Of a DNA stretch of 58,890 nt, positions 436-31,743 are shown one piece after another; position 1 is the stretch's first letter, and each line of letters begins with the position of its first letter. The notes beneath the pieces were generated by a model. The model saw only the letters and a program-made list of their open reading frames with translations, did not search any database and had not been told where the DNA came from. Location: NCBI GenBank assembly GCA_024276465.1, contig JAJRXD010000155.1, forward strand, positions 1-58,890. The letters run 5' to 3'. This DNA is from Deltaproteobacteria bacterium. Lineage in GTDB: Bacteria; Desulfobacterota; WTBG01; CAIYCZ01; CAIRTM01. The position numbers were made by a program, and so were the translations under genes.

Positions 436-2766
436 ATGAATGAACCAATGCATCGAAGGGAATTTGTGAAATTAGCTGTGAAATCTGCTGTAGCTATGGG
501 TACATACCCTGTACTTTCTTATGCTGCTGCTGAAAAATTTGCTCCAAAGGATAAAGAGGTTGAAAAATATGTAACTGGTTGTATGTGGTGTCAGAACGGC
601 TGTAGCATGATTGTTCACATAAAACATGGAAAAGCTGTGCATATAACAGGTAATCCTGATGATCCTGTGACTAAAGGAAGGATATGTGTTAAGCCTTTTG
701 GCAGTCTCGAACTGATTAACAGCCCTTACAGGCTTACCCATCCCCTTAAACGAGTAAGTTTCCGCGGAACTGGTGCTGAATTTTCTAAAATAAGCTGGGA
801 AGAAGCCCTGGATGAAATTGCAGGAAAACTAAAAGATATTCAAAAGCGCTATGGAGGTGAAGCCCTTGGTATCTGGGCTTCAGGACGAAGCGCTTCTGAC
901 GGCCGGAAGCTCAACAGGGCTTTTGCAAAACTTTATGGCACCCCTAACTATGAAAAAACAGGACCGTTTTGCAACTACGCAGGCAAACCCGCTGGAATTT
1001 CAGTAGTAGGAACGCGGCATACTCCATGGACTTACAGTGATGATGATTTCTATGCTGCAAACCTTTATATCTTCATCGGGAGCAATTTTGCAGAAACGCG
1101 TCCTGTTGCCTTTTCTCATCTGAAAGAGAATAAAAACAATGACAAATGCAAGTTTATAGTAATTGATCCTCGAAAAATAAAAACAGCAAAAAAAGCAGAT
1201 CTGTGGCTTCCAATAAAGCCAGGTACTGACCTTGCTTTAGCTCTTTCATTGATTCACTATATTATTGCCCATAACCTTATAAATAAAAGATTTGTAGAAC
1301 AGTATACCCTTGGTTTTGAACACCTCAGGTCAGAAATTCTAAAAGGCGATTATAATCTTGAATGGGGTGCTAAAACAACCGGGCTTGCAGAAAAGGATAT
1401 AAAGTATTTGGCTGAAACTTATGCACATACTAAAAAAGCTATTATGATAGGCAATGCAGGCTTGAGCCATCATACCAACGCTGTACAAACCCACCGGGCT
1501 TTTTACTTTCTTGCTGCTATAACAGGTCATTTTGGGGAAAAGGCCATGGGCTATTGTTGCCTGAATAATGGTGGCATTTCAACCGGCAGCCTTGCTCTGC
1601 CTAAGGAAAAAATTCCCAAAACAAAAATGGAACTGAGCAAAAATCCTGTGGGCTGGATGGAATCCATAGAAAGCCATGTTTATCCCTATAAACTGCGTGC
1701 CCTTATCTCAACCGGCAGTCCCATGACCCAATGGCCGGATCAGTCCAGGCTTCGCGGGCTTATGGACAAACTTGCGCTCAGCGTATATAACGGACTTACT
1801 AAAAATATAAGTGCCTGTTACTTTGATTATATCCTTCCTGCTGCTACCTGGATTGAGGCGGGGGGGCTTGCCCCGGTATCCGATGACAGCAGGTTTGTAT
1901 GGGTGCCAAAGCTCATTGATCCTCCTGGAATGGCCAAACCTGACAGATGGTGGTGGGTTGAACTTGGGAAACTGATGGGGTGGGGAGATATTTTTTCTGA
2001 TAGTCTTAAAGACCCTGCATTGTTTCAAAATATTGCAGGGGGTAAAAAAGGATACAAAGTTAAACACTTTACAGCAAAAAAAGATAATTCTTTAAGAGCT
2101 CCTGTCAAAATAGTAAATGGCACAATTAAGGAACGGGACACCCTCTTTTTAAATAAACAATTTGCCACTAAAAGCAGAAAGATTGAGCTTTGGACACGGG
2201 AGCTACAGGACAGATTTACATCTTATGGTCTGAGTGTTATTCCTCAATTTTATACTGATCCGGATATAGCTTCAAGTGAACAAACTACCATAACTTATGA
2301 CAGAAGCAAAATGATTCCATCTGTTTTTCAGAAGAACAGGACATGGACTTTCAAAGTTTCTCTTGTCACCAAAAGCCAATCAGAAAACAACTTTCCCTTC
2401 TATCTTATTACTGGACGGCCCTCAAGAGCAATTATGGGTCATACTTCTCACTGGATTAGAAAGCTGAATGAAGTCACTCCTGACCAGTTTTGTATTATTA
2501 ATATGGAGACAGCAAAAATTCTTGGTGTAAAGAGTAGTGAACGGATAAAAGTAAAGTCCCCATATGGAGAGACTCAGGCTGTGGCTTATGTAACGAATTC
2601 TATTCGTAAAGATACTATCTTTATACCTTATTCCTATGGAGAAAAAAGTCCATTTACTTCCTGGAAATCGGTAAATTTTTTAACCAGTATGAGAGCCATC
2701 TGTCCTGTTTCCGGGCAGATTGCCTTTAAAGGAATCATGGCAACTATTGAAAAATTATTGCTTTAG
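436..2766 (+). CDS. Tat-exported molybdopterin oxidoreductase (DMSO reductase family catalytic subunit)
   Basis: This 776-residue protein belongs to the Mo/W-bisPGD (DMSO reductase) family. The N-terminus has a Tat-like segment (R7-R8-E-F, then a weakly hydrophobic stretch to about residue 32). A [4Fe-4S] motif follows at C49, C52, C56 and C84 with the usual Lys at 86. C179 in a PFCN context after the conserved YGTPN is the probable metal ligand, as in the thiosulfate/polysulfide reductase, arsenate reductase and acetylene hydratase branches. A molydopterin-dinucleotide-binding C-terminal domain spans about residues 640-770. The ATG at 436 follows AAAGGGGAC with good spacing. No partner FeS or membrane subunit adjoins it, which is unusual for a respiratory enzyme; the NapH-like gene at 7174 could be the electron partner (inference). 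Substrate cannot be assigned from sequence alone. Porins of two families lie on either side. Confidence 0.9.
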   Translation: MNEPMHRREFVKLAVKSAVAMGTYPVLSYAAAEKFAPKDKEVEKYVTGCMWCQNGCSMIVHIKHGKAVHITGNPDDPVTKGRICVKPFGSLELINSPYRLTHPLKRVSFRGTGAEFSKISWEEALDEIAGKLKDIQKRYGGEALGIWASGRSASDGRKLNRAFAKLYGTPNYEKTGPFCNYAGKPAGISVVGTRHTPWTYSDDDFYAANLYIFIGSNFAETRPVAFSHLKENKNNDKCKFIVIDPRKIKTAKKADLWLPIKPGTDLALALSLIHYIIAHNLINKRFVEQYTLGFEHLRSEILKGDYNLEWGAKTTGLAEKDIKYLAETYAHTKKAIMIGNAGLSHHTNAVQTHRAFYFLAAITGHFGEKAMGYCCLNNGGISTGSLALPKEKIPKTKMELSKNPVGWMESIESHVYPYKLRALISTGSPMTQWPDQSRLRGLMDKLALSVYNGLTKNISACYFDYILPAATWIEAGGLAPVSDDSRFVWVPKLIDPPGMAKPDRWWWVELGKLMGWGDIFSDSLKDPALFQNIAGGKKGYKVKHFTAKKDNSLRAPVKIVNGTIKERDTLFLNKQFATKSRKIELWTRELQDRFTSYGLSVIPQFYTDPDIASSEQTTITYDRSKMIPSVFQKNRTWTFKVSLVTKSQSENNFPFYLITGRPSRAIMGHTSHWIRKLNEVTPDQFCIINMETAKILGVKSSERIKVKSPYGETQAVAYVTNSIRKDTIFIPYSYGEKSPFTSWKSVNFLTSMRAICPVSGQIAFKGIMATIEKLLL

Positions 2767-2808
2767 CATGATGAGGTTTTTAGTGCTTTTAAGCACATCA
2801 TTTTAAAC

Positions 2809-2851
2809 CAGGGCCTGCGTCCCGGCAGAAATGGCCGGGGTGCAGGCCCTG
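2809..2851. terminator. GC-rich hairpin after the molybdoenzyme gene
   Basis: Arms of 10 bases (CAGGGCCTGC at 2809-2818 and GCAGGCCCTG at 2842-2851) enclose a second 6-bp stem (CCCGGC at 2821-2826 with GCCGGG at 2834-2839). It begins 43 bases after the stop of the oxidoreductase. There is no long T run, so this is a strong hairpin and a likely but not classical terminator. Confidence 0.6.
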
Positions 2852-2855
2852 CAAA

Positions 2856-3056
2856 TAAATCAAAAGGCTTGTCGAATATTGCAGCTGCCCCTAATTGTTC
2901 GGCCAGCACATGGGTTTTGGCATCTCCGAAAGCGGTAATCAGGACCATGGGTGGAAAGCCTTTGATGCCTCCCAAGTCCCGCAGAACTTCTATCCCGCTT
3001 GGTCCGGGCATGCGTATATCTGAAACAATGATGTCGATGAACTCTGGCTTGTGACA
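2856..3056 (-). pseudogene. Remnant of a response-regulator receiver domain
   Basis: Read on the minus strand, the frame gives ...EFIDIIVSDIRMPGPSG, then VLITAFGD and FDKPFDL. These are the phospho-acceptor Asp region (VSDIRMPG), the beta-4 segment and the conserved Lys-Pro of a CheY-like receiver. The part before the acceptor Asp and any output domain are missing. The frame runs into the hairpin at 2809-2851 instead of a normal domain end. It is joined in a different frame to a sensor-kinase N-terminus (3057-3421), so it is a degraded two-component system. Confidence 0.75.
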
Positions 3057-3421
3057 GGGCAGCAGTTGGCCTTCATTGTGAACGAAACGTCTTTGCCCCT
3101 GATGACCTGGTTAAGCATTGTTAAGGGAGCTTGAGGCAAATAAGGGGCAGTAGCTGAATTGTCCAGCCAAACCCAACGGATCTTAATCGAATGTTCTTTT
3201 CTGTTGGCATTATTAATTAGCGCGATCGTCTTGTTTTCGCCCGATTGCTTCCAGGTATGTTCAACCATGCCCGACAGTGCATGCCCTAAAAGAAGGAGAT
3301 CCGTTTTCATGTCATGATTAAAAGTTTTGACTTCCTGGTCAATACTGAGGTATCCATCAATTCCCAATATAACGACCAGCATAACAACGATTGAAAGATA
3401 TATTTTAAGATAAAGCCTCAT
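3057..3421 (-). pseudogene. Remnant of a sensor histidine kinase N-terminus
   Basis: An ATG at 3421 follows AGAGGAAAGGG with workable spacing. It opens MRLYLKIYLSIVVMLVVIL, a typical first membrane segment of a sensor kinase, then continues with a soluble sensor-like stretch up to about GKDVSF. Near 3085-3095 the frame that would continue a plausible sensor sequence (VHNEGQLL) is shifted relative to the upstream frame. A few codons later the sequence becomes the receiver domain. HAMP, HisKA and HATPase regions are absent. An internal deletion plus a frameshift is the simplest explanation. Confidence 0.65.
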
Positions 3422-3508
3422 CAAAATGCCCTTTCCTCTGCCAGGATAAGCTGTGTGGTTAACATACTTAAGGATAGTTGCAGTGTCAAACGCTTTTCCA
3501 TGTTTAAA

Positions 3509-3565
3509 CCGAATGGCATCCAGCAGCAAATTGATATCCGTGGGATAAAGCACACTGGTTTCCAC
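3509..3565 (-). pseudogene. Short transposase-like fragment
   Basis: The minus-strand frame contains METSVLYPTDINLLLDAIR, which resembles a segment common in ISNCY/IS5-like transposases (a YPTDINLL-type motif). Only about 19 residues are recognisable; both sides are unrelated. Upstream on the same strand a lipobox-like stretch (FALTACS) occurs in another frame, so several gene scraps meet here. The assignment rests on remembered motif similarity only. Confidence 0.4.
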
Positions 3566-3679
3566 TACAAAACGGGGTTGCCGAAGCAGGAAGCACCACA
3601 GCAGTGGAACAGGCTGTCAAGGCAAACAGGAACACTGTTACTGCTATGTGAATCTTTCCCTGGTTTTCTGTCCAAACAA

Positions 3680-3838
3680 AATTGATGGCTTCGTAAAAAG
3701 TCCAACTTCGGCGTTGCGCGGCATCCTTCGTCATTCCGACGTACAGTAAGTACGCCTCATTCCTCAGGATTTGCGCGCCTTGAATTTGAAGCTTTTTACT
3801 TTGCCATCGAATTTTCACTTTTTACGACTTTATCAAAA
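3680..3838. repeat. MITE-like element with terminal inverted repeats
   Basis: The left end TTGATGGCTTCGTAAAAAGT (3682-3701) is matched by the inverse of the right end, ACTTTTTACGACTTTATCAA (3817-3836), with four mismatches. About 115 bases lie between. The interior has the CGTCATTCCGACGTACAGTA / TAAGTACGCCTCATTCC type sequence that recurs in many delta-proteobacterial genomes as a dispersed non-coding repeat. It carries no transposase. It lies between the two-component remnant and the porin gene, consistent with a rearranged region. Confidence 0.65.
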
Positions 3839-3995: not shown

Positions 3996-5474
3996 ATGAA
4001 AGTTCTGAAAATAATTTTCAATCTCGCAGTAGTGCTGTTTATGCTGTTATCCCCCCTGTCAGCAAAGGTTGTAATATTTCAAAGCGGGGATGATCTGAAA
4101 ATATGGCTGTCCGGAGAACTGACAGCACGCTATGAAGGCTGGAACTGGTTTGATCCTGCTGACAAAAACAATACAAATAATAACTATGGGTACTATTTCA
4201 CAAGAAGCCGTCTGGGAATTGGATGTGAAACAGACAGGCTGGATGTTTTTGTTCAGGCACAGCATACCCGGATGTGGAACCTGCCATACAACTCCATTGC
4301 ACAGGCACCAGAAGGCACTCTTGGCATTGGTGCCATCTATTATGCCCACCGCGGCAAAGAAAATTATTATAATATATTTATAAAACAGGGTTTTATCCGC
4401 TTTAAAAATTTTCTGCAAACCGGTATCAGCCTTAAAGCAGGCAGGTTTGAATACATTGATGCTATGGAAGTTGAATATAATAACCCCAAAGTTATGTGGC
4501 TGAAGAAAATCCGGCTTGCCGAGCGCCTGATAGGCCCCTTTGGCTGGTCAGCATTTACCCGGAGCTTTGATGGCGTTGAACTGGTTCTGGACAAAACAAA
4601 ATATAATATTACTGCCATGGCCTCTTACCCCACACAGGGTGGTTTTGAAAATGATGTACAGCACCAGATGGATGATATTACTCTGGTTTCAGCAACTCTG
4701 ACCGTAAAGTACAACCAGCTGATTCCCCATACAGAGAGCCGCCTTTTTTACTTTTTTTATGATGATGACAGGGATATACCCAAAGTGGACAACACACCTG
4801 CAGGTTCCGGGCTCAACAAAGGCGAAATTGAGGTCCATACACTTGGCTTTCATCTGTTGAACACACTGGACACAGGGCCTGGAGTGGCAGATTTCCTCCT
4901 GTGGGGTGTGTACCAGTTTGGTGACTGGGGAAAGCTTGAGCATAAAGCATGGGCGCTTGATGTTGAGGCAGGATTTCAGTTTATCAGGCTTCCGGCCAAA
5001 CCATGGCTGCGCATGGGCTGTTTTGTTTCCTCCGGCGATTCAAGCCCATCTGATGGGGATCATGAGACATTTTACCAGCTGATCCCCACTGCAAGAAAAT
5101 ATGCGCTTTCCCCTTTTTATAACCTTATGAATAATGAGGATTTTTTTCTGCAGTTAATCCTGAAGCCACACAAAAAATTATTAATAAGAGCTGATATGCA
5201 TTTTCTCCGCCTGAATGATTCTTCTGACATGTGGTATATGGGGGCTGGGCCGACCAGAGAATCAGGCAAAATTTTTGGCTACATTGGGCGTCCATCTTTT
5301 GGCAGTGCTGACCTTGCTGAAGTTCTGGATATTATGGTGGTCTTTACTTTTAATAAACATGTTTCTTTTAATGCCTATTACGGGCATGTGTGGGGCGATG
5401 ATGTTATTGAAAATATTTACAGGAGGGATGATGATGCAGATATGCTCTTTATTGAAATGGGGCTCAAATTCTAG
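3996..5474 (+). CDS. Alginate-export-type outer-membrane beta-barrel protein
   Basis: This 492-residue protein starts with a signal peptide (hydrophobic to about residue 22, SPLSAK cleavage region). It then shows repeated amphipathic strands rich in aromatic residues at strand ends and finishes with ...LFIEMGLKF, a C-terminal Phe typical of barrel proteins. The pattern LSGELTARYEGWNWFDP... TRSRLGIGCET near the N-terminus and FDGVELVLDKTKYNITAMASY in the middle fits the Alginate_exp (AlgE-like) barrel family. Many members of that family in anaerobes sit in respiratory loci and have nothing to do with alginate. It is the first gene of a run that overlaps the radical SAM gene by 41 bases, so the products are probably made together. 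The cargo is unknown. Confidence 0.85.
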   Translation: MKVLKIIFNLAVVLFMLLSPLSAKVVIFQSGDDLKIWLSGELTARYEGWNWFDPADKNNTNNNYGYYFTRSRLGIGCETDRLDVFVQAQHTRMWNLPYNSIAQAPEGTLGIGAIYYAHRGKENYYNIFIKQGFIRFKNFLQTGISLKAGRFEYIDAMEVEYNNPKVMWLKKIRLAERLIGPFGWSAFTRSFDGVELVLDKTKYNITAMASYPTQGGFENDVQHQMDDITLVSATLTVKYNQLIPHTESRLFYFFYDDDRDIPKVDNTPAGSGLNKGEIEVHTLGFHLLNTLDTGPGVADFLLWGVYQFGDWGKLEHKAWALDVEAGFQFIRLPAKPWLRMGCFVSSGDSSPSDGDHETFYQLIPTARKYALSPFYNLMNNEDFFLQLILKPHKKLLIRADMHFLRLNDSSDMWYMGAGPTRESGKIFGYIGRPSFGSADLAEVLDIMVVFTFNKHVSFNAYYGHVWGDDVIENIYRRDDDADMLFIEMGLKF

Positions 5475-6327
5475 TAATTTTTCCGGTCCACAGAAAAGGA
5501 AAGTCCGGCAGGACAAGATACCTTTCCATCCCTGTATGAATGAGGAGGCACACTATCTTATTCCCAGGCTGCATCTCCCGGTTGCCCCCCTGTGCAATAT
5601 TCACTGCAGGTTCTGCAACCGTAAAATATCTTCCACTGAAACAGGGACGCGCTGTCCCGGGGTGGCAAATAAAATCCTTACGCCACAGCAGGCATTGAAA
5701 AAAACAGGACAATTTTTTAAGCTGAATGGAAACTGCTCGATTGTAGGAATTGCAGGTCCGGGAGATTCCCTTGCCAACAGGGAAACTTTTCAAACCTTTA
5801 AGCTTGTAAGGGAAGCCTTTCCGGACGCTGGTTTTTGTCTGTGTACCAACGGCTTGAACCTTCCATGTTCGATAAAGATGCTCAGGGAACTGAAAGTTAA
5901 GCATTTGAGCGTGACAATAAACGGAGTGCTTCCGGAGATAGTTTCAAAAATTACTCCGTGGGTTAAGCTGAACGGACGCATTATAAAAGGGGAGGGTGGT
6001 GCGCGTATTCTTATAAAAAACCAGCTTGCCGGTATCAGTGCCGCTGTATCACATGATATGTTTGTAAAAATCAATACTGTGGTAGTTCCACGCATAAACG
6101 GTTTCCATGTCGAAAAGATTGCAGAAACAGCAAAAAGGCTTGGGGCCGGTATGTTTAATCCCATGCCGCTTATACAGGAAGGCAACTGGAAAAAGGAAGA
6201 TCTCCCTTCACAGAACTATATGACTGATTTGCAAAACAGATGTGAACTTTATCTCCCGGTATTTAAAAAGTGTTGTCAGTGCCGTGCGGATGCCGAAGGG
6301 ATTCCAGGGAAGGAGATCTGTTTATGA
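5434..6327 (+). CDS. NifB-like radical SAM protein
   Basis: Start chosen at the third of three tandem ATGs because AGGAGG (5421-5426) is 7 bases before it; this gives 297 residues. The radical SAM motif is C54-x3-C58-x2-C61 in the context APLCNIHCRFCNRK. It is preceded by HPCMNEEAH and followed near the end by CCQCRADAEGIPG. All three match signature segments of NifB, the enzyme that builds the NifB cofactor precursor of nitrogenase. The YDC segment that follows the CNRK of NifB is replaced here (ISSTETG), there is no NifX-type tail, and no nif gene is present in the window. It overlaps the next gene by 4 bases (ATGA). A role in making or handling a metallocluster for a neighbouring protein is an inference; the family match itself is strong. 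Confidence 0.85.
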   Translation: MQICSLLKWGSNSSNFSGPQKRKVRQDKIPFHPCMNEEAHYLIPRLHLPVAPLCNIHCRFCNRKISSTETGTRCPGVANKILTPQQALKKTGQFFKLNGNCSIVGIAGPGDSLANRETFQTFKLVREAFPDAGFCLCTNGLNLPCSIKMLRELKVKHLSVTINGVLPEIVSKITPWVKLNGRIIKGEGGARILIKNQLAGISAAVSHDMFVKINTVVVPRINGFHVEKIAETAKRLGAGMFNPMPLIQEGNWKKEDLPSQNYMTDLQNRCELYLPVFKKCCQCRADAEGIPGKEICL

Positions 6328-7181
6328 GCAGGGAAAATAAAAAAATCAGCCGCCGGTCGTTTATTAGGGCCTCAGGCCTTGCCATAACCGGAGCGCTTGC
6401 TGCCCCGGCAGTATCATCAGGCAGTAAGTTTAAAAATGCTTCTCTGCGGGTCTGGTCATGTGGTGGTCTGGCTGAAGCCTTTATGCCGGCCAACAGGTTT
6501 TATGAGCAGGAGACAGGCTGCACAATTGCATATACCGGTGCATTTGCCGCTGCACTTGGTAAGTCGCTCCTGGGAAAAGCCACGACAGAGGTCTTTGCAC
6601 CCCGCGTGCTTGAACTTGCCAGAAAATTGAAAGCCGTGGGGAAGATGCTTTATTTCAAACCGCTCTGTTTTACCAAATATGTGCTTGTAACACCTGCAGG
6701 CAATCCTGCGGGTATTAACAGTATCGAGGATATGGCAAGGCCGGATGTGCGGGTTGTCCTGACCCCTGGTGCCTCTCCGCCGGGTGGAGCAGCCAGTATG
6801 ATTATTCTGAAAAAAGCCGGAGTTCTGGAGGCAGCGAAAAAAAATGCTGTTTTAATGGGTGACTGTGTTCAGATGGCAATGCCTTACATCATAAACTCCA
6901 GAGGAGATGTGGCTGTTGTGGAGCTTCGCCTGACGCGTATTCCGCAGTTCAGGGGAAAAATTGATATCATGGAAATTCCTGATAAATTCATTCCCCCAAA
7001 ACCTGTTCCTTTTACAATTGGAGTAATGAAATGGGCCAAAAACAGAGAACTGGTGGAAGATTATATAAATTTTATCCTCTCGGAAAAGGGTCAGACATAT
7101 TTTGAAGAAGCAGGATTTATACCGGCCTTCTCTGAAGAGGGAAAAAAGCTTATTGAAAAGTATGGTGTCAGGGATGGCTGA
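6324..7181 (+). CDS. Tat-exported ModA-like periplasmic binding protein
   Basis: The ATG at 6324 overlaps the radical SAM stop (ATGA) and has AAGGAG 8 bases upstream, giving 285 residues. The N-terminus has a twin-arginine signal (SRRSFIRASGLAITGALAAPA). The mature part has type-2 periplasmic binding protein features: a first lobe LRVWSCGGLAEAF, hinge regions around KYVLVTPAGNP and DVRVVLTPGASPPGGAA, and a C-terminal KNRELVEDYINFILSEKGQ segment as in molybdate/tungstate-type and iron-type binding proteins. No ABC permease or ATPase follows, so it may act as a carrier or sensor and not in uptake. Tat export suggests that it folds, or binds a cofactor, in the cytoplasm first, which would fit a client of the upstream NifB-like enzyme (inference). 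Confidence 0.8.
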   Translation: MSRENKKISRRSFIRASGLAITGALAAPAVSSGSKFKNASLRVWSCGGLAEAFMPANRFYEQETGCTIAYTGAFAAALGKSLLGKATTEVFAPRVLELARKLKAVGKMLYFKPLCFTKYVLVTPAGNPAGINSIEDMARPDVRVVLTPGASPPGGAASMIILKKAGVLEAAKKNAVLMGDCVQMAMPYIINSRGDVAVVELRLTRIPQFRGKIDIMEIPDKFIPPKPVPFTIGVMKWAKNRELVEDYINFILSEKGQTYFEEAGFIPAFSEEGKKLIEKYGVRDG

Positions 7182-7917
7182 TATAAAAAAAACTCATTGG
7201 AAGAGAAGAATAACACAGCTTGTGTTTTTCGGGGTGCTGGGCAAATTTTCATTTTATGGAATATTTCGCTGTCCATTTGCTGTTCCATATGTCAGCTGCA
7301 GCAGCTGCCCGGTTGTGCAGTGTCCGGGACGCAAACTCTGGCTGTTTTTATGGGCTGGACTGGGGCTGAGTGCTATATGTTTCGGGCGGGGTTTTTGTTC
7401 CTGGGCTTGTCCGGCAGGGTTGGTTTCAGAGCTGCTGACAAAATATTCATTTTATAAGGATAGATTTAAGGGGTTTGCAGATGTTTTTCTTTCAGGCGGA
7501 AAATATATTGTTTTGACTGCGTGCATAATTCTTTTTATTTATCCCTGCAATCCGCGATGGGCTGTTCCAATACGAACGGGAGAATTCTGGAATTCTTTAA
7601 AACTCACTTTTGAACATGCTGATACTTTGTGGCTTGTCAGAACATTTTTTGTGCTGGCAGGAATTTTGCTGTCCCTTCTTCTCAGCAGTTTCTGGTGCTG
7701 TTATCTCTGCCCAACAGGTGGAATATTAGAGGCTGTAAAACGTTTTTCTGTTTTCAAGTACTTTATAACGAATAACTGCAGTGACTGTAACAAATGCCGC
7801 GAGGTTTGCTCAATTGGAAAACGTCCCGGGGAAAACAACTGCACAAACTGCGGTGATTGCCAGGATATCTGTCCGGCTGGAGCAATCACTTTAGGCAGAA
7901 AAAATAGTCCTGAATAA
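7174..7917 (+). CDS. NapH/NosR-like membrane polyferredoxin
   Basis: About 247 residues from the ATG at 7174, which overlaps the previous gene by 8 bases; an in-frame ATG at 7162 is an alternative start and neither has a strong ribosome-binding site. Four or so membrane segments are visible. Motif CFGRGFCSWACPAGLVSELL and a second CCYLCPTGGILEAV are the paired cysteine-proline motifs of the NapH/NosR/CcoG family. Two [4Fe-4S] clusters follow at the C-terminus (CSDCNKCREVC and CTNCGDCQDICP). Such proteins pass electrons between the quinone pool or cytoplasm and the periplasm. The position after a Tat-exported protein suggests electron delivery to it or to the oxidoreductase at 436 (inference). 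The stop lies only 12 bases before the tRNA gene. Confidence 0.85.
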   Translation: MADIKKTHWKRRITQLVFFGVLGKFSFYGIFRCPFAVPYVSCSSCPVVQCPGRKLWLFLWAGLGLSAICFGRGFCSWACPAGLVSELLTKYSFYKDRFKGFADVFLSGGKYIVLTACIILFIYPCNPRWAVPIRTGEFWNSLKLTFEHADTLWLVRTFFVLAGILLSLLLSSFWCCYLCPTGGILEAVKRFSVFKYFITNNCSDCNKCREVCSIGKRPGENNCTNCGDCQDICPAGAITLGRKNSPE

Positions 7918-7929
7918 TATGGGCCAATA

Positions 7930-8026
7930 GAGGGATGCGGGGCTGGCGCCCCCAGCGGGCTGCAAACCCGTTAGCCGGGTACGATTTCTGCCTGGAGTCG
8001 GGTTCGATTCCCACCATCCCTCTCCA
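7930..8026 (+). tRNA. Selenocysteine-tRNA-like tRNA with GCA (Cys) anticodon
   Basis: Folding by eye gives an 8-bp acceptor (GAGGGATG 7930-7937 with CATCCCTC 8015-8022), U73 at 8023 and an encoded CCA at 8024-8026. The D arm is a 5-bp stem (GGGGC/GCCCC) with a 4-nt loop TGGC. The anticodon stem is GCGGG/CCCGT with loop CTGCAAA, so bases 34-36 are GCA (7962-7964). A long variable arm forms (CCGGG 7975-7979 with CCTGG 7991-7995 around a 7-nt loop after two further pairs). The T loop is TTCGATT with stem GGG/CCC plus GT/AC if C7999 is bulged. The 97-nt length, 8-bp acceptor, small D loop and long variable arm are those of bacterial tRNA-Sec, whose loop would be CTTCAAA. One change (U34 to G34) would give this anticodon. 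U73 is a cysteinyl-tRNA synthetase identity base, whereas tRNA-Sec normally has G73. It may be co-transcribed with the upstream polyferredoxin gene. Confidence 0.8.
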
Positions 8027-29091: not shown

Positions 29092-29673
29092 TCACGAATT
29101 TTCCCCCATTGTCTCAATTACTTCCATGGCCTTATCAAGGGCTTGCCTGAGTTTTTCAGGTGATTTGCCACCAGCCTGGGCCATATCATTCTTCCCGCCG
29201 CCCCTTCCTCCTACAACAGGAGCAATTTGCTCAATAATTTTCCGTGCTGAAAACTTTTCTGCAATGTCTTTTGTCACCATGGCAAGAAGGTGAACCCTGT
29301 CTCCATCCTCTGCTCCGAAAACAATAATCCCTGATCCCATTCGATCCCTGATTTTATCTGCGTAGCTGCGAAGCGACTTTGGATCTTTTTCCTGAACCTT
29401 GGTTACAAGCACACTGATCCCTGAAACCTCCTTTGCCATGTCAAGGATTGAGGAAGCCTGTTTTGAAATAAGCTGGTTTTTGAGTTTTTCAATCTCTTTT
29501 TCCAGGTTCTTCTGCCCAGCAGTCAGATGTGCCACCTTATCTGTTAGTCCATTAACATCGCTTTTGAGGAGTCCGGCCAGGCTTTCCAGAATTTCCTCCT
29601 CTTTGTGAATAAAAGAGCAGGCTTCTTTGCCGGTTACAGCTTCAATACGCCTGACACCGGCTGCAATTGCACC
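29092..29673 (-). pseudogene. alaS 3' segment (C-Ala domain) after an in-frame TAA
   Basis: In the alaS frame the codon after ...GIFKITS is TAA (29674-29676) where relatives have Glu. Reading on gives GAIAAGVRRIEAVTGKEA, the normal AlaRS continuation, then a coiled linker (LTAGQKNLEKEIEKLKNQL) and the C-Ala/DHHA1 domain (VGGRGGGKNDMAQAGGK), with no other stop until the natural end. The joined length, about 883 residues, is normal for AlaRS. An in-frame AGGAGG (29595-29600) lies 5 bases before a CTG at 29589, and a GTG at 29535 is another possible start, so a separate C-terminal polypeptide is conceivable. Whether this is a mutation, sequence error, split gene or recoded stop cannot be decided here. 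Confidence 0.7.
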
Positions 29674-31743
29674 TTAACTTGTAATTTTAAAAATCCCAAT
29701 CTCACCTGTTGAATGGATATGGGTTCCCCCGCACAATTCCATGCTGTAATCTGAAATGCTTACAACCCGAACCTCATCTCCATATTTTTCACCAAACAGA
29801 GCTGTTGCACCCATTTCCCTGGCTTCCTTTATTGGAAGCACTTTAATGCTGACAGAGGCATTTTTACGAATGTGTTCGTTTACATGATTTTCAATTTCTT
29901 TCAGGTCTTCTTTTTTGATTGCCTCAAAATGGCTGAAGTCAAAGCGAAGCCTTTCCGGAGTTACAAGAGATCCGGCCTGCTTTACATGATTTCCCAGATG
30001 CTTCCTCAAAACAGAATGGAGGATATGGGTGGCTGTATGGTTATTTGCTGTTGACTGGCGCGCAGTGGAATCCACTCTGAGCAGGGCATCATCCCCCACA
30101 TTAATACGCCCCTTTAAAACCTTTCCCTGGTGAACTGTCAGTTCAGGGGTGGGCTTAACAGTATTCACGACTTCAATTGTAAAATCATTGTTTGAGATTA
30201 CACCCCTGTCTCCTTTCTGACCGCCTGACTCACCGTAAAAGGTGGTATCATCTGTAACAACCTCAATGTTATCCCCCTCGGAGGCAGAATCAACTGGTTT
30301 GCTGTTCCTGATAAGTGTATGTATCCGGGAGGAAACATCATTTTTTTCATATCCGCAGAATGAAACCTTAAGCCCTTTCCTGGTCATGCTTTTGTAAATC
30401 CCCTCTATTTTATCATCGCCGGAACCTTTCCATGCCTGGCGTGCTCTGAGCCTCTGTTGCTGCATGGCCTTCTCAAAACCAGCCTGGTCAATTTCCATTG
30501 CCTGTTCAGAAGCAATATCCGCAGTCAGGTCCAGAGGAAAACCATAAGTGTCGTAAAGCTTGAACGCTACCTGTCCGGGTATAACAGATTTGTTGTTCTT
30601 TTTTAATGCCTCTATCTCTTCCTCAAGAATCCTCAGCCCTGAATCAATCGTTGCGGAAAAGGTTTTTTCCTCATTTAAAACAACCTTGGTGATGTAATCC
30701 CCTGAACTCAGAATTTCCGGGTAGATATCTTTCATCTGTTCAGCAACAATACTGACAGATTCATGAAGGAAAGGCTTTTCAATGTCCAGCATCCTTCCGT
30801 GTCTTGCTGCCCGTCTCATTATTCTTCTCAGGACATAACCCCGTCCTTCATTGGAAGGCAGCACACCGTCTGCAATCAGAAAAGAAATTGCCCTGCTGTG
30901 ATCTGCAATTACCTTCATGGATGTATCATGATCAGTATCTGTTCCATATTTTTTGCAGGAAACATTCTCAACAAAATCAAGAAGCGGTTTGAAAAGGTCT
31001 GTATCATAATTGCTTTTAGCATTCTGAATAACAGCGGTAATCCGCTCAAGGCCCATTCCGGTGTCAATGCTGGGCCTGGGCAGGGGGGTCATTTCACCAT
31101 GTGCATCCCTGTTAAACTGCATAAAAACAAGGTTCCACAGCTCAAGATACCTGTCGCAGTCACAACCGGCTTTGCATTCAGGGCTGCCACAGCTGAAATT
31201 CTCACCCTGGTCAATCAGTATCTCTGAACAGGGGCCGCAGGGCCCTGTATCACCCATTGACCAGAAATTGTCCTTCTTCCCCATTCTGACTATCCTTTCA
31301 GAGGGCAGATCAGTGATGGCATTCCAGATTTTGTAAGCCTCGTCATCTTCCCTGAATATTGTTACCCATAACCGCTCAGGGGAGATTTCCATGATACTGG
31401 TTATAAATTCCCATGCCATGGAAATGGCCTCAGCTTTAAAGTAGTCACCAAAGGAGAAGTTGCCAAGCATCTCAAAGAATGTGTGGTGGCGGGCAGTTCG
31501 GCCAACGTTTTCCAGATCATTGTGTTTGCCACCGGCCCTGACACATTTCTGAGATGAAGCAGCCCTGTTATACTGCCTTATTTCATCGCCTAAAAAAACA
31601 CCCTTGAACTGAACCATGCCGGCATTTGTAAAAAGCAGTGTAGGATCATTCCGGGGAACAAGCGAAGAGCTTTCAACAACTGCATGATCCTTAGCCTTGA
31701 AATATTCTAAAAAATCTTTTCTTATTTCAAATGATGATTTCAC
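29674..31743 (-). CDS. alaS: Alanyl-tRNA synthetase, catalytic and editing part (ends at in-frame TAA)
   Basis: The GTG at 31743 opens MKSSFEIRKDFLEYF, as in other AlaRS. The 689-residue frame holds the class II core (NAGMVQFKGVFLG; GKHNDLENVGRTARHHTFFEMLGNFSFGDYF, a canonical motif 2 region), the tRNA-recognition domain and the editing domain with HTATH and CGGTH zinc ligands. It ends after ...GEIGIFKITS at a TAA, just before the linker to C-Ala. The aminoacylation and editing residues are therefore intact and only the C-Ala dimerisation/elbow-binding domain is detached. recA and recX lie upstream in the usual delta-proteobacterial order. Confidence 0.9.
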   Translation of the reverse strand: MKSSFEIRKDFLEYFKAKDHAVVESSSLVPRNDPTLLFTNAGMVQFKGVFLGDEIRQYNRAASSQKCVRAGGKHNDLENVGRTARHHTFFEMLGNFSFGDYFKAEAISMAWEFITSIMEISPERLWVTIFREDDEAYKIWNAITDLPSERIVRMGKKDNFWSMGDTGPCGPCSEILIDQGENFSCGSPECKAGCDCDRYLELWNLVFMQFNRDAHGEMTPLPRPSIDTGMGLERITAVIQNAKSNYDTDLFKPLLDFVENVSCKKYGTDTDHDTSMKVIADHSRAISFLIADGVLPSNEGRGYVLRRIMRRAARHGRMLDIEKPFLHESVSIVAEQMKDIYPEILSSGDYITKVVLNEEKTFSATIDSGLRILEEEIEALKKNNKSVIPGQVAFKLYDTYGFPLDLTADIASEQAMEIDQAGFEKAMQQQRLRARQAWKGSGDDKIEGIYKSMTRKGLKVSFCGYEKNDVSSRIHTLIRNSKPVDSASEGDNIEVVTDDTTFYGESGGQKGDRGVISNNDFTIEVVNTVKPTPELTVHQGKVLKGRINVGDDALLRVDSTARQSTANNHTATHILHSVLRKHLGNHVKQAGSLVTPERLRFDFSHFEAIKKEDLKEIENHVNEHIRKNASVSIKVLPIKEAREMGATALFGEKYGDEVRVVSISDYSMELCGGTHIHSTGEIGIFKITS

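Follow-up and report, generated by a model that had tools for sequence, protein, structure and literature searches.

Background

Cysteine tRNAs with the body of tRNA-Sec, U73 and a GCA (or UCA) anticodon are known as the selC* tRNA-Cys class, which was described by Mukai et al. 2017 and is summarised in a review (PMC7609411). The published hallmark of the class is an A51a bulge in a 4-bp T stem, and the selB* gene that lies adjacent in some selC* lineages is found only in those lineages and is not required for class membership (PMC7609411). Charging of the class with cysteine in vivo by a CysRS* has been reported, and delivery by a SelB-type factor where SelB* is present is a published hypothesis (PMC7609411). 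The allo-tRNAs of the 8/4 and 9/3 serine type also have a 12–13 bp acceptor branch and a long variable arm, with SerRS or AlaRS identity and varied anticodons (PMC7609411). YedE, DUF3343, YedF and a LysR regulator have been put forward as candidates in selenium metabolism by Lin et al. 2015 (PMC5322559).

The window, which is the whole stretch of 58,890 nucleotides analysed here (contig JAJRXD010000155.1 of assembly GCA_024276465.1, a member of the Desulfobacterota), contains a tRNA gene at 7930–8026 on the forward strand. The initial annotation had described it as of a kind reported before without a defined role, which matches selC* tRNA-Cys (PMC7609411). Beyond that annotation lie the Firmicutes type of its bulge, its place as the last gene of an operon, and the clustering of its relatives with selenium genes.

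Structure of the tRNA

The gene is 97 nt in length and is labelled tRNA-Cys(gca) by ARAGORN, while in Rfam the sole match over the gathering score of 47 bits is tRNA-Sec, RF01852, which scores 49.4 bits over its full length of 1–91 (E 2.5e-8). As read from the sequence, the acceptor stem is GAGGGAUG/CAUCCCUC, with all eight pairs perfect between 7930–7937 and 8015–8022, and the D arm is GGGGC-UGGC-GCCCC, a 5-bp stem with a 4-nt loop. The anticodon arm, AGCGGG-CUGCAAA-CCCGUU, has a 6-bp stem and carries the anticodon GCA at 7962–7964, and the long variable arm at 7975–7995, CCGGGUA-CGAUUUC-UGCCUGG, has 7 bp and a 7-nt loop. The T arm is GU(C)GGG-UUCGAUU-CCCAC, in which there are five T-stem pairs and C7999 is bulged, and the gene ends with the discriminator U73 (8023) and an encoded CCA (8024–8026). 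The 8-bp acceptor, the D loop of 4 nt, the long variable arm, GCA, U73 and CCA had all been noted initially and are confirmed; the reading of a Sec-type body with a Cys anticodon and U73 holds as well.

The bulged C7999, which had also been suggested, is recovered with the cloverleaf by RNAalifold when the window tRNA is aligned with 13 relatives of the same type, and the same bulge is found at 23 other loci. Compensatory changes are seen in 13 of the 31 pairs across these 14 genes of the C-bulge subtype. Minimum free energy folding of the window tRNA as a single sequence favours a structure that is not a cloverleaf, so that the evidence for the cloverleaf is comparative; folding of one sequence is equally uninformative for the true tRNA-Sec. 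The gene at 7930–8026 is a genuine additional tRNA for cysteine, with the architecture of a selenocysteine tRNA.

Membership of the selC* class

In the GTDB collection of one genome per species, a pattern made up of a UGCAAA loop, a long variable arm and a UCCA end identified 67 loci, one of which (L123) is doubtful. A looser pattern, run on 395 genomes of the phylum, gave about 20 genuine tRNA genes; the matches L017, L023, L025, L043 and L046 were among those dropped as non-tRNA. A class covariance model, R2, built from 58 relatives with the window sequence left out, gives the window tRNA 72.1 bits, as against 29–38 (maximum 37.9) for true UCA tRNA-Sec genes and 20 for one tRNA-Ser. Scoring with a Sec model had been proposed as a check, and RF01852 does score the window tRNA as Sec-like, while the class-specific model parts it clearly from true tRNA-Sec. 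Mis-scoring of an ordinary tRNA-Cys or tRNA-Ser, for which the ARAGORN label tRNA-Cys might speak, has a probability close to nil: the 8-bp acceptor and long arm are against it, and it is refuted by the R2 scores and by a class model that gives 22.7 bits to the genome's own canonical tRNA-Cys and at most 33 to tRNA-Ser.

The acceptor pairs all vary across the class while pairing is kept. There are three to six standard pair types at each of the eight positions in the 67 distinct genes, and each position is paired in at least 61 of the 67 distinct sequences. Relative to the consensus, acceptor pairs 2, 6, 7 and 8 of the window tRNA have changed as whole pairs, with the pairing kept. The loop CUGCAAA is present in 66 of the 67 distinct relatives, although UGCAAA was already fixed by the search pattern.

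When the window tRNA, one relative from the phylum and the 67 loci are compared by simple pairing, an 8/5 branch with a bulged C is found in 24 of the 69, an A bulge with a 4-bp T stem in 19 and a bulge-free 5-bp stem in 17, and the A51a/4-bp detail fails for most of the 69 aligned genes. The window tRNA has an 8/5 branch with one bulged nucleotide rather than 8/4 with the A51a bulge; its C7999 lies after three inner T-stem pairs in a 5-bp stem, where the class description gives A51a in a 4-bp stem. It otherwise shares with selC* tRNA-Cys the Sec-type body, the 8-bp acceptor, the long variable arm, a one-nucleotide T-stem bulge, GCA, U73, presence in anaerobic bacteria and occurrence in addition to a normal tRNA-Cys. 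It differs in that it is at the end of a porin/radical SAM/substrate-binding protein/NapH operon in a Desulfobacterota genome and in that this genome has neither selB* nor cysS*.

With bacterial tRNA-Sec (RF01852) the window tRNA has in common the 8-bp acceptor, the 4-nt D loop, the long variable arm and a score over the gathering threshold, but it has GCA and U73 where tRNA-Sec has UCA and G73, and a UCA tRNA-Sec is encoded separately in the genome. With canonical tRNA-Cys it shares GCA and U73, but not the 7/5 branch with a short variable loop, having instead an 8-bp acceptor and a 7-bp variable arm; the canonical tRNA-Cys of the genome is 75 nt long with a short variable region. From allo-tRNAs it is set apart by its cysteine identity. 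The Sec-like body, U73 with GCA, and the sequence profile of the class are all present, and by these features the window tRNA is a member of the known selC* tRNA-Cys class. Eight of the 67 loci are labelled Actinomycetota, which is absent from the list of phyla in the review (PMC7609411). In comparison with that review, the frequent C-bulge subtype of Firmicutes, the loci in Actinomycetota, the isolated case in Desulfobacterota and the association with YedE, YedF and SelD seem to be new, although some of these points may already stand in Mukai et al. 2017.

Cysteine and selenocysteine apparatus of the genome

The assembly is 4.1 Mb and 95% complete. A canonical tRNA-Cys(GCA) adjoins a tRNA-Gly on another contig, a UCA tRNA-Sec is found elsewhere in the genome (73.5 bits), and a genome search identified SelA (585 bits), one full-length CysRS (585 bits) and one SelB (363 bits), the last on a different contig from the window tRNA. 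The initial annotation had proposed such a search, and a normal tRNA-Cys, a UCA tRNA-Sec, SelA and SelB are thus all accounted for. No second SelB or second CysRS was found in the genome, nor was a selB* found beside the window tRNA or elsewhere in the genome, the lone SelB being outside the SelB* clade. Because canonical tRNA-Cys, UCA tRNA-Sec, SelA, SelB and CysRS are all present, the window tRNA comes on top of a full set of Cys and Sec components.

Identity for CysRS rests mainly on GCA and U73. Their presence bears upon the possibility that this is a true tRNA-Sec, which SerRS would charge with serine and SelA would convert, so that Sec (or Ser) would be inserted where UGY stands as a sense codon. 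The long variable arm, the RF01852 match over threshold and the SelA of this genome are in keeping with such a function, which is nonetheless very unlikely in view of the cysteine identity elements, the coexisting normal UCA tRNA-Sec, the competition that conversion of UGY to Sec would bring with the canonical tRNA-Cys, and the report that a CysRS* charges members of the class with cysteine in vivo (PMC7609411).

Operon context

The window tRNA starts 12 nt after the stop of an ORF on the same strand, at 7174–7917, that encodes a NapH-like 4Fe-4S membrane protein with 20 Cys in 247 aa. Before it on the forward strand are a Tat-type ModA-like substrate-binding protein (SBP_bac_11; 6318–7181), a NifB-like radical SAM protein that scores under the NifB curated cut-off (5452–6327) and an alginate-export-type outer-membrane porin (3996–5474). 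No terminator-like site was detected in the stretch that separates the tRNA from the NapH-like ORF, and, judging by the 12-nt spacing and the shared strand, the tRNA is probably co-transcribed as the last gene of the operon. A molybdopterin oxidoreductase, FDH/PhsA-like though below every curated cut-off, lies further 5' on the same strand (436–2766) and is set apart from the porin by a gap of 1.2 kb, so that it is uncertain whether it is on the same transcript. Downstream of it, at 2764–3818 on the reverse strand, are short overlapping ORFs that resemble pieces of a response regulator and a sensor kinase. Elsewhere in the window, alaS (29092–31743, reverse strand) has an in-frame TAA at 29674–29676, after which the frame runs on unshifted to 29092; this may be a sequencing error, a split gene or readthrough.

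The operon does not explain the tRNA. Eighteen relatives of the tRNA from the phylum are without it, the sole exception being a weak porin match beside the tRNA in G038, and G133, a genome from the same family, lacks the tRNA but has the operon, its orthologues of the porin, radical SAM protein, binding protein and NapH being 55–69% identical to those of the window. Within the operon, the NapH-like protein and the radical SAM protein alone stand out in their use of Cys codons, as would be expected of Fe-S proteins, and SECIS-like hairpins sought after the 51 operon Cys codons were not convincing, the best z being -3.1 among 51 tests. There are no selenium genes near the tRNA in the window.

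On the same contig as the operon of G133, at a distance of about 4.5 kb, are YedF (160 bits, above the cut-off), a double-cubane reductase (502 bits), its activase and, by eye, a SelD-like fragment. This genome also has, in addition to a normal UCA tRNA-Sec, a second and divergent UCA tRNA-Sec-like gene (L145:9844–9937) with no encoded CCA.

Origin of the gene

Among 17 genomes of the taxonomic class, the gene is present in the window genome only. The other 16 have no selC*-type gene, three weaker matches in them being UCA tRNA-Sec genes. All of the 23 other genes with the C bulge are labelled Firmicutes, and their carriers are Desulfotomaculum-like sulfate reducers, Ammonifex, Desulfovirgula and Clostridia MAGs. 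By identity, the nearest genes, at 74%, are from Desulfovirgula, Desulfotomaculum and a Clostridiales MAG; the T arm of the window tRNA exactly matches that of L079, from Ammonifex, and its D arm is almost the same as that of L108, from Desulfovirgula. The tRNA tree places the window gene beside Ammonifex, with poor resolution and a long window branch. Since all other C-bulge genes are from Firmicutes and the gene is absent from the rest of the class, it was probably acquired horizontally, from Firmicutes, which would be the simplest reading of its distribution.

It is not that the contig itself is a Firmicutes contaminant, as its RecA is the only RecA in the genome and has 81–82% identity to those of genomes of the same family. 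Nor is the gene the attachment site of an integrative element, as the window contains the 3' end of the tRNA only once, and a phage origin is rejected because viral contigs gave no match.

If it arrived in this way, the gene could be a decaying, functionless remnant of the transfer. That the window genome is the only carrier in its class, that the gene stands alone without SelB*, and that its branch in the tRNA tree is long are what might be expected of such a remnant; yet all of the stems are intact, the loops are invariant, CCA and U73 have been kept and the changes in the acceptor pairs are compensatory, and decay is therefore unlikely.

Selenium genes and SelB* across the class

The ORFs of the 67 loci were clustered and the clusters named with curated models. 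Within a 3-kb radius, at least one of SelB, YedE, YedF-TusA, SelD and DUF3343 is present at 26 of the 67 loci, across phyla: SelB at 15, YedE at nine, a TusA/YedF-like gene at eight, SelD at two and PF11823 (DUF3343) at one. The remaining 41 loci, many of which are short, have no such selenium gene within 3 kb. Random sites would be expected to give about one locus in 67, a rough estimate rather than a computed control, which takes about six such genes per 3.5 Mb; the loci from related genomes are not independent of one another. These neighbourhoods suggest, as a lead from gene order, that use of the tRNA may depend on selenium status. Co-occurrence with tRNA-Sec, seen in about 60 of 64 carriers, is not evidence of function, because 131 of 148 genomes drawn at random from the phylum also carry tRNA-Sec.

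Such neighbourhoods of YedE, YedF/TusA, SelD and DUF3343 are also compatible with a role outside translation, in which the tRNA would be a carrier of Cys or a decoy in selenium or sulfur trafficking. That the structure and the decoding loop are still those of a functioning tRNA (the loop being partly fixed by the search pattern) and that the class is reported to be charged with Cys in vivo (PMC7609411) make this role decidedly unlikely.

Near the selC* tRNAs of L082, L099, L112, L122 and L135 there is a recurring double-cubane cluster reductase, its activase or both; in the literature collection searched, no paper names both double-cubane cluster reductase and selenium.

The SelB-like neighbour at 15 of the 67 loci is usually directly downstream of the tRNA. 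Both SelB forms are present in 11 of the 25 genomes tested, in line with PMC7609411, and in the SelB tree, with the row for G077 ignored on account of its extreme branch, the SelB* proteins are one fully supported clade of 19. SelB* has kept its full length, at 639 aa and covering model positions 2–579 of 581. The SelB* of the Desulfobacterota loci form a clade that is sister to SelB of Firmicutes and Actinomycetota and not to the ordinary SelB of their own genomes; the tree suggests that SelB* and the tRNA were transferred together.

The close linkage, the paired SelBs and the intact SelB* clade favour delivery of the tRNA by SelB (ordinary here, SelB* in the relatives), by which Cys would be inserted at UGC or UGU before a SECIS-like element as a dedicated second route for cysteine. 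For the window genome this is possible but doubtful, as its only SelB is ordinary and outside the SelB* clade, the operon has no detectable SECIS-like element, and the canonical tRNA-Cys covers the same codons. It is because of this lack of a SECIS-like element in the operon that plain auxiliary decoding of Cys is ranked first and SelB delivery second.

Proposed function

The favoured reading, and a probable one, is of a functional selC* tRNA-Cys at the end of an operon, probably derived from Firmicutes, that is charged with cysteine by the ordinary CysRS and is an auxiliary isoacceptor linked to selenium. Given the GCA and U73 identity elements and the reported charging of the class by CysRS*, the single CysRS of the genome is likely to charge the window tRNA, which would then place Cys at UGC and UGU codons. 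The codons are those already decoded by the canonical tRNA-Cys, so any special role would lie in the Sec-like acceptor branch, that is, in which elongation factor carries the tRNA. Relatives that have a dedicated SelB* probably use it, and the carriers available in the window genome would be EF-Tu or the single ordinary SelB. As the class is tied to selenium trafficking, the most plausible role would be the supply of Cys in that context, for example in Cys-for-Sec balancing.

A more elaborate form, and a rather unlikely one, is a selenium-responsive Cys/Sec switch, in which the tRNA, together with YedE, YedF, SelD, DUF3343 and SelB or SelB*, would bring Cys to chosen UGY codons. If true, this would extend to UGA codons in UCA forms, and it would mean that the choice of elongation factor, and not the identity of the codon, decides the insertion of Cys. 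A second cysteine tRNA for the same codons, with a body of the type used by the Sec machinery, is an unexplained natural experiment in the organisation of the genetic code, and the survey of 67 loci, with its recurrent neighbourhood of YedE, YedF, SelD and SelB, gives a lead that its role should be sought in selenium homeostasis.
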